DNA of 64,000 nt from Fragilariopsis cylindrus CCMP1102 (Eukaryota > Bacillariophyta > Bacillariophyceae > Bacillariales > Bacillariaceae), in assembly GCA_900095095.1 (NCBI GenBank), contig FMBT01000463.1:1-64000 (forward strand), given 5' to 3'. Position 1 is the first letter of the stretch. Every line of letters begins with the position of its first letter. The notes under the pieces were generated by a model that saw nothing but the letters and a program-made list of their open reading frames with translations, had not been told where the DNA came from and did not search any database. Shown in pieces: positions 39,913 through 42,564 of this stretch. Made by a program: the position numbers and the translations under genes.

Positions 39913-40864
39913 TCAATCATTACGACTTGCCAAGTCGTATTCTGCGATCCCATCCTTCGTTATGAGGTATATCAAAATTCCGTATCCACTTAGACAGTCT
40001 CGTTCAATGGCTTTCATCGACATGACGAGGTACATATGTGAAAAAGAGAAAAAGAAAGAAAACAATGGTTAAGTGATATTGAATATATAATATATAAATT
40101 CCTCGAATAAAATTATGGTGTCTCAACTAGCAAGTAACATTACTACTATATTACTTACCACTTTGAAATACTTTCCCACAGCATTCTAACAGTTCTTTGG
40201 GTTCCATATTTGGTTTCCAAAGTGCTTCTGCTGTTCCATATAATGACGTCGATGCAGCACCCGAGCAGATAAAGGATTTCGAGAAACTTTGTGCTCCGAT
40301 CATATCCATTGCACACAAGAACGGCTTACGAGTTGTTTCCATCAATCCTACCACCAACGGCTCAACATAATATCCTCGTTTTTCATACAATACATGACTA
40401 GTTAAGCATGCCAATGCAGGGGGGGATATTCGACGTCCCTTCATCTCGTCATTATTACTATCATCGTCGTCGTCCGTTTGTAATCCAGAAGAAGCAATAC
40501 TAAATCCCAATTCTCGATTTCTTTTGTATTCAATTTCCATCTTAAGTTCTTCTGATAGACTTTGAACGTCTCCCTCTAAACCTGAAAATCCTACCATCAA
40601 ATTAGGATGTGGTGCCCAAACTTGACGAGGAACAACATTGACCATTTGTGGTCCCGAACCAAATCGTTTGTCTACTGCCATAGCAACACATCCATTCCCT
40701 GCCATTGCCAACAACGACCCACCATTCATTGTTAGAGGATTTTGTTGCTCCTGTGCATAACAACTGTATCGACTCGTTGTACTAACGTCAACAACAACAA
40801 AAATTACAAATACGATAGAAAGTCGCACAATGAAATGTGTTGGGGAGCAAGGAAACAACATCAT
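39913..40864 (-). CDS. 20S proteasome beta-3 subunit with N-terminal signal peptide
   Basis: Beta-3 (PSMB3) is a non-catalytic core subunit of the 20S proteasome. Exons are 40159-40864 and 39913-40010 (148-bp intron, QS joined to AIERD), giving 267 residues; human PSMB3 has 205. Matching blocks are NGGSLLAMAGNGCVAMAVDKRFG, VLYEKRGYYVEPLVVGLMET (outlined), LCAMDMIGAQ, LWKPNMEPKELLE and, from the new exon, AIERDCLSGYGILIYLI. The family normally begins at the NGG region. Here about 45 extra residues precede it, with a strong signal-anchor (FIVRLSIVFVIFVVVDVSTT), and the ATG is in frame with no intron between. A secretory-route leader on a proteasome subunit suggests a second proteasome in the periplastid compartment, the relict cytosol of the red endosymbiont. 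That is inference. A short Asp/Asn run interrupts the middle. Confidence 0.88.
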
Positions 40865-41303: not shown

Positions 41304-42564
41304 ATGACTGTCGATAACAGCAAGGTCATATTGCAGAATACGTTAGGGATACTTTTGGGATTTGACGACGGTGCGGAAGATGTGTTGGATCATTTACTTA
41401 CCATAGAATCAGGAGATGTAAGTTTAGTCGGTCAAGGTGTGGTTAACCGTGATTTTCTTTTGTACCGCTGCTAATTTATTCTTCTTCCTTATTTTTGTTT
41501 ATGTGTTGTTCTTATTCGCAGGATCTTTCAGAGTATCTTGATCAATTATTGGGTAGTTGTCGTGAGGATGTTTTTGAGTTTGTAGAAAATGTGAATCTGT
41601 ATCAAAGGGGAGAACCTCTAAAAGTATATATCGGCGACGACGATAATAATAATAACAGTAACAATGCTGTAAGCCAAGAATATGATAGCAAACCAAAAGC
41701 TTCAGAGTCACAACGAAATAATAATAACAATGATACACAAAAGCAGCAGTCAAAGAAATCTAGAGTGCCACCCCCAAAGAAGACCACCACTAAGAGTCGA
41801 CCAATCTCCACAGAAGGTATTGATACAAATAAAGCAAATCAGAATACAAAAGTACAAAATCAACAATCTACATCAATTTCTGCCCATTCCGATATACAAA
41901 ACGGTCAATCTGAAAATCAGCAACAGAAACAACAACAACAGAAACAACAACCGACTATAATAAAGAAATCACATCCCTCTAAAGGGAAGGCGAATATAAT
42001 TTGTGGATGCTTTGGAACAAAACATAAACCATTGACTAATTGTCTATACTGTGGAAGAATATCATGTGAATTGGAAGGATACGACTATTGTTCGTTTTGT
42101 GGATACATGGTAGACGAAGCTGGAATGTAAGTATTTCATCTTTTGTTCTCGGTCGTTCCCCAATTCTCTTGTTGTTTTTATTATACATCACACAAGTATT
42201 CTCCTTGGAATCATTTCATATTTTTCATCACATCAGCCGCTAATGATTGGTTTTCTTTCTTGTCCATCCTTTTTTTCATGTATCAAAATTAACTAATTTT
42301 TAAATTCTCTTATCTCTTTCGTACTCTTCATGTATATTGTATTGCAGTGAGGGTAGCAACGACAAAGCCCGAATACAAAAGGATCGTTTGTTACGATTTG
42401 ATAGAGATTTTGCAAGGCGGACTGAAGTAATTGATGATCAATCTGATTATCAACAGCCAACAACGTGGATGACAGAAGAAGAAAAAGAAGATGCAGAAGA
42501 CAATCAAAAGAAGCAGCTTGAACTTTTGAAACGACCAAAACAAACATTAAATATTGGGTTTTAA
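41304..42564 (+). CDS. TRIP4: TRIP4 / ASC-1 homologue (C2HC5 zinc finger)
   Basis: TRIP4 is a subunit of the ASC-1 complex, a transcription coactivator that also helps dissociate stalled ribosomes and repair alkylated DNA. Exons 41304-41417, 41522-42126 and 42348-42564 join in phase to 311 residues; animal TRIP4 is about 580 because of a C-terminal ASCH domain absent here. The N-terminal helical part is VILQNTLGILLGFDDGAEDV and DLSEYLDQLLGSC. After a Gln/Asn linker comes the zinc finger CGCFGTKHKPLTNCLYCGRI followed by SCELEG and CSFCG. The conserved tail is KARIQKDRLLRFDRDFARRT with EVIDDQSDY, the segment after the finger in the family. The first two exons share splice signals GTAAGT and TTCGCAG. 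The shape matches lower-eukaryote ASC-1 without ASCH. Confidence 0.9.

Follow-up and report, generated by a model that had tools for sequence, protein, structure and literature searches.

A leader-bearing proteasome beta-3 gene of Fragilariopsis cylindrus and its probable place in a periplastid 20S proteasome

Structure and identity of the leader-bearing beta-3 gene

The window, meaning the whole stretch of 64,000 nucleotides that was analysed, carries a gene of two exons whose conceptually spliced minus-strand coding sequence gives a product of 267 residues (Table 1). The ends of this coding sequence coincided exactly with the span that an earlier note on this DNA had proposed for a beta-3 gene, and the beta-3 landmarks that the note had followed through the last exon (AIERDCLSGYG...ITKDG...LASRND) were present in exon 2. 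The splice sites were picked by eye from homology rather than from a transcript. A divergently transcribed neighbour at 41453-42130 of the window has an exon with a zf-C2HC5 zinc finger (2.5e-7).

Table 1 Features of the leader-bearing beta-3 gene (window positions) and second-set or beta-7-like loci named in the text
Feature	Position	Strand	Basis or remark
Leader-bearing beta-3 CDS, two exons	40864-39913	minus	ends with stop
Exon 1, Met1 at 40864	40159..40864	minus	beta-3 best match; Pfam PF00227
Intron, 148 nt, GTAAGT...AAAG	40011..40158	minus	
Exon 2 and stop	39913..40010	minus	C-terminal beta-3 signature AIERDCLSGYG...LASRND
Leader, 45 residues, putative signal peptide and short transit-like stretch	40730..40864	minus	hydropathy, shuffle control, host beta-3 start
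Leader hydrophobic core IVFVIFVVVDVS	40781..40816	minus	mean Kyte-Doolittle 2.96
Internal Met46 codon, near ordinary beta-3 start	40727..40729	minus	host beta-3 alignment
Acidic insertion, 28 residues vs 4 in best PDB chain	40445..40528	minus	PDB alignment
Second-set beta-1 (L026)			
Second-set beta-2 (L029)			
Second-set beta-4 (L032)			
Second-set beta-5 (L028)			
Second-set beta-6 (L031)			
Beta-7-like gene (L020)	C424:47019-47843		leader and internal Met

The whole product matched the Pfam Proteasome profile PF00227 (4.1e-28), and beta-3 chains were the best 17 of the 60 PDB rows listed (116 matched), with a best value of 1.6e-43; 14 of these 17 rows are named beta-3 or PUP3 and 3 only "Proteasome subunit beta". 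In a tree of the beta subunits of this genome, the protein paired with the host beta-3 at 100/98 support. Its domain opens with MNGGSLLAMAG, compared to YNGAAIIAMAG in the host protein, and lacks a Gly-Thr-Thr active N-terminus. Judged by homology, the gene is a 20S beta-3 subunit (PSMB3), of the non-catalytic type. The earlier note had called the sequence quite divergent, and this was borne out over 198 columns, with identities of 42% to the host beta-3 and 40% to PDB chain 7dr6_H, presumably a mammalian beta-3 chain, where the host protein and 7dr6_H have 61% in common. Cytosolic or nuclear PSMB3/Pup3 is thus the same subunit type and supplies the best PDB matches, whereas the window beta-3 differs from it by this low identity, by the leader and by the acidic insertion, whose borders in the alignment with the best PDB chain pair query residue 112 with chain residue 72 and query 141 with chain 77.

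Leaders were judged by hydropathy and the (-3,-1) rule, with start methionines and cleavage sites read by eye. The roughly 45 extra N-terminal residues with a strong signal-anchor, as the earlier note had described them, were recovered as a leader with a 12-residue core more hydrophobic than controls from six host genes, which exhibited mean Kyte-Doolittle values of 0.37-1.50. Dinucleotide shuffling of the 300 nt upstream of Met46 produced a comparable leader, meaning an in-frame extension that opens with Met, spans 20 codons or more and has a core of 2.9 or higher, in only 3 of 5000 trials, so that we reject a chance open frame. The probable cleavage site, YSCYA/QEQQ, read by eye with the (-3,-1) rule, puts Q at position +1, the position at which the lack of an aromatic residue is the targeting criterion, a rule found in PMC12136025. 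The leader is read as a candidate bipartite periplastid targeting sequence.

Met46, if used as the start, would yield a leaderless beta-3, and with its leader unused the gene would be a second cytosolic beta-3. Met46 does lie near the canonical beta-3 start, and in a second copy of the gene region, that of the other haplotype, on contig C486 (97% identity over 1489 aligned columns), a one-base gap within the leader throws Met1 out of frame. The coding sequence of that copy contains, however, four more one-base gaps, five in all, and since gaps of this sort are also scattered over its flanks and intron we take them to be assembly errors. A full leaderless host beta-3 is already present in the genome, such a leader arose in only 3 of the 5000 shuffles, and hydrophobic extensions recur among the sister genes, so that we consider a start at Met46 scarcely credible. 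The C486 copy of the window region (L033, C486:17000-22000) is a low-quality stretch, its many one-base gaps falling both inside and outside coding sequence.

Host-type and second-set 20S genes

A PF00227 profile search of the genome showed 51 matches with E no greater than 0.001; raising the limit to 10 brought the number to 57, the six extra ones adjoining known loci. Grouped by contig copies and by reading of frames, these fall into 25 loci, of which 14 are host-type, 10 belong to a second set and one is HslV-like. The host-type set comprises alpha-1 to -7 and beta-1 to -7, a leader-bearing beta-7-like gene included; these types were assigned by eye from known motifs, the PDB search among host genes having covered beta-3 alone. 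The second, leaderless PSMB3 for which the earlier note had proposed a search was found on contig C463 (L014); it begins MSILEYNGAA, and its presence rules out the window gene as the sole beta-3 of the genome. Silicon transporters gave 27 matches in the same genome, the best at 1.1e-226, as expected of a diatom.

The second set consists of beta-1 to -6 and four alpha subunits, all with N-terminal extensions. For each of the five betas other than the window gene, the best PDB match was its own beta type. Extension hydropathy lay above all six host controls in 8 of the 10 genes; the beta-1 extension, at 1.50, equalled the highest control, and that of the alpha L027, at 1.18, was inside the control range. 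Other 20S subunits with leaders, the further companions that the earlier note had suggested looking for, are thus represented by nine more extended genes, clearly hydrophobic in seven of them. In a tree built from 13 beta rows of this genome, each of the six second-set betas paired with its host counterpart of like type, with starred support in four of the six pairs and values below it for beta-4 (93/93) and beta-1 (89/90), and in every pair the second-set branch was the longer. We found also, by reading the alignments, that second-set beta-1, beta-2 and beta-5 retain the catalytic residues Thr1, Asp17 and Lys33, with six additional residues lying between these positions in beta-2; because the three are kept, the second-set beta ring is expected to have proteolytic activity. 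The start of beta-5 is uncertain because the open frame continues upstream of its leader. Inside the beta-5 gene (L028, C439:273640-274223) a frame change was seen, and likewise, at the corresponding position by match coordinates, in its C772 copy; it may be an assembly error, a tiny intron or a real frameshift.

Could the leader be real and the product work outside a proteasome, as a divergent secretory, ER-lumen or other plastid protein, i.e. a neofunctionalised paralogue? The high divergence and acidic insertion of the window beta-3 would suit such a history, and in a beta-3, which lacks catalytic residues, decay could not show itself by their loss. A lone moonlighting protein, however, predicts none of the doubling found in five other betas and four alphas, and the catalytic residues are retained in second-set beta-1, -2 and -5, which makes a paralogue of this kind very unlikely.

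The alpha subunits were more difficult to type. One of them, L025, gave an identical leader reading in both contig copies and was called alpha-2, provisionally, from its YSLTTF motif only. Since the alpha tree is without any supported fork, PDB matches served for a guess at how L022, L027 and L035 should be typed. L022 (C90:1022547-1023155) ranked archaeal alpha chains above its best eukaryotic matches in the PDB, alpha type-8 and type-7. L035 (C293:390020-390556), of which one contig copy was seen, has an in-frame stop followed by a frame change. Weak Proteasome_A_N matches on C62, C60/C803 and C354 do not read as alpha subunits (C803 being outside this reading). Queries with beta-7 and alpha sequences, the TIGR03633 archaeal alpha model and PF00227 at E<=10 gave no further proteasome loci; these searches score first-look candidates and miss divergent exons, and the alpha query missed L027 and L035. 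Further second-set alphas and a second beta-7 may have diverged too far, be interrupted by introns or lie outside the assembly. The second set as found, with four alphas and without a beta-7 of its own, makes up part of a 20S particle, and a complete second particle is at present hypothetical.

Cap, unfoldase candidates and a probable periplastid proteasome

Six Rpt types make up one 19S set. The Rpt domain PF16450 gave 13 matches at six places, five of them above the cut-off and the sixth, C367/C718, below it with an E of about 0.24. No second Rpt set was found with this profile, which a divergent second set could escape, the non-ATPase cap subunits standing outside the search. PA28_C exceeded the cut-off at a single place, present on two contigs and interrupted by a stop, and matched once below it; UMP1 is present at one leaderless locus, and the genome search gave none with a leader. 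DER1 showed 16 matches on several contigs.

The CDC48_N domain gave seven matches, namely C90/C113, C230/C360, C356 (below the cut-off, 2.7e-4) and one weak pair. Two Cdc48-like genes, at C230:9200-13000 and C356:49750-52900, have leader-like first exons. The upstream exon of the C230 gene reads MRFTAASAFLALATANDKVYA..., with a core hydropathy of 1.67, and is followed by a GTAAGT donor; the protein ends in EEDLYS, an HbYX-type tail. In the C356 gene, MLFRSLAIPAGVVLVAALMA... lies upstream in another frame (core hydropathy 2.50) and the end, VPVTGED, is without HbYX. The joins were read by eye, and the ends of the C230 and C356 genes were read, the C90 copy being left out.

From the observed gene structure, homology, leader, companion genes, Rpt domains and Cdc48 tails we infer, with a probability of about 0.9, that the window gene encodes the beta-3 of a dedicated periplastid, i.e. 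symbiont-cytosol, 20S proteasome of a diatom. The earlier note had put this reading forward as a candidate, and the leaderless PSMB3 together with the nine further extended 20S genes supports it. On the other side stand the beta-1 and L027 extensions that do not surpass the host controls, the out-of-frame Met1 of the C486 copy and the single UMP1 locus without a leader. The signal peptide would carry beta-3 into the ER or outer plastid membrane, and the stretch that follows, apparently with no aromatic residue at +1, would so steer it to the periplastid compartment. There it would fill the non-catalytic position in a ring with second-set beta-1, -2, -4, -5 and -6. As to the feeding of substrate, the likely unfoldase would be the leader-bearing Cdc48 with the HbYX-type docking motif at its C-terminus, and the other leader-bearing Cdc48, without HbYX, would serve protein import.

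The periplastid 20S proteasome of plastid-bearing heterokonts, diatoms included, was reportedly first described by Moog 2011 and Stork 2012. According to PMC5070193, the periplastid proteasome of such heterokonts is limited to core subunits of the 20S, which bear signal peptides; in the majority of species that possess two symbiont Cdc48 proteins, just one of the pair carries HbYX, possibly because import and degradation are divided between them. PMC5756292 likewise states that in diatoms the periplastid 20S is present and the cap lost, and that two heterokont periplastid proteasome proteins localise to that compartment. Our findings agree with these descriptions in the nuclear-encoded core subunits with signal peptides, in the absence of a second 19S ATPase set among the matches found, and in the leader-bearing Cdc48 pair of which one member has HbYX. 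A cap-less periplastid proteasome fed by Cdc48 is therefore a mechanism already known, which the present findings fit, and the idea of a periplastid proteasome appears right but not new, because it is already in print in these two sources. Compared with these secondary descriptions, the present genome differs in exhibiting six betas and four alphas that look dedicated, and a sole beta-7-like gene with a leader and an internal Met. The cryptophyte nucleomorph proteasome, according to PMC5070193, belongs to the compartment that corresponds to the one proposed here; it is nucleomorph-encoded with core and cap, whereas in the diatom the leader-bearing genes are nuclear and the PF16450 search gave no second Rpt set.

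One genome thus yields a large share of the parts list for a putative second proteasome in the remnant cytoplasm of an endosymbiont: six betas, four alphas and a leader-bearing Cdc48 whose tail is of the HbYX type, the Rpt search having given no second set. This list makes it testable by what means a 20S core without a cap receives its substrates, and whether degradation is uncoupled from import through an ERAD-like translocon.

Origin of the second set and the beta-7-like gene

We compared identities for five beta types, beta-4 excepted. The second-set copy showed, to the host copy and to an external PDB chain respectively, 42 and 40% for beta-3, 43 and 41% for beta-1, 47 and 53% for beta-2, 54 and 54% for beta-5, and 44 and 42% for beta-6, and host and external copies share 54-68% over the same types. 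The external rows come from 7dr6, 7qve and 5cz7, which we take to be mammal, plant and yeast; for beta-1, -2, -5 and -6 the external chain was the top PDB hit to the second-set protein, a choice that biases the comparison towards the external side. A recent host duplication is disfavoured because in no type does identity to the host copy exceed that to the external chain by more than 2 points. The split between host and second set looks nearly kingdom-deep and would fit the endosymbiont's own proteasome, long branches weakening this test.

The second set might instead descend from host genes duplicated within diatoms or stramenopiles and not from those of the red endosymbiont, location and function being unchanged. 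Each second-set beta pairs with its host type in this genome, which both histories predict; in three of the five types identity to the host copy is higher by 2 points than identity to the external chain, and the comparison covered host and PDB copies rather than red algal sequences. The second copy is nevertheless nowhere more than 2 points nearer the host in the five types, with beta-5 equal and beta-2 6 points further from it, a counter-test made weak by the long branches and by the selection of four of the five external chains as top PDB hits of the second-set proteins. A duplicated-host origin appears unlikely, and an endosymbiont origin would be the likelier one.

The beta-7-like gene, L020, was the only one found in a genome query for a second beta-7, with a match at C424:47019-47693, and we take it to be beta-7 from a characteristic motif and by exclusion of the other types. 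Its open frame contains MWCFLLQSSYLQLLPLLIVSILTTRCHSNQ..., and 40 residues further on, ahead of the conserved domain, an internal Met (MSSNQ). Among 5000 shuffles of the 300 nt that precede this Met, two gave a comparable leader, and none of the ten readable host-type genes (alpha-2 to -7, beta-1, -3, -4 and -6; alpha-1, beta-2 and beta-5 lay outside the survey) had an upstream in-frame Met-started leader. Because it combines a leader with an internal Met and no second beta-7 was found, this one gene may serve both proteasomes. A part-shared proteasome, in which one beta-7 gene would feed both particles via alternative starts and the dedicated alphas would number maybe about four types, is a tentative proposal that we think somewhat less probable than its absence. 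If true, it would represent a novel type of dual targeting, to the cytosol and the periplastid compartment, and the gene offers a sharp test of subunit sharing across two compartments. PMC4494062 reports dual targeting of diatom tRNA synthetases to mitochondrion and plastid, and argues that a case of cytosol-plus-periplastid dual targeting in a cryptophyte requires alternative starts. None of the titles surveyed concerned a shared proteasome subunit, which is no proof that such a subunit is unpublished; the single leader-bearing beta-7-like gene is possibly a new point. A host-type alpha-4 shares its strand and a stretch of about 5 kb with the beta-7-like gene (C424:42555-47693).
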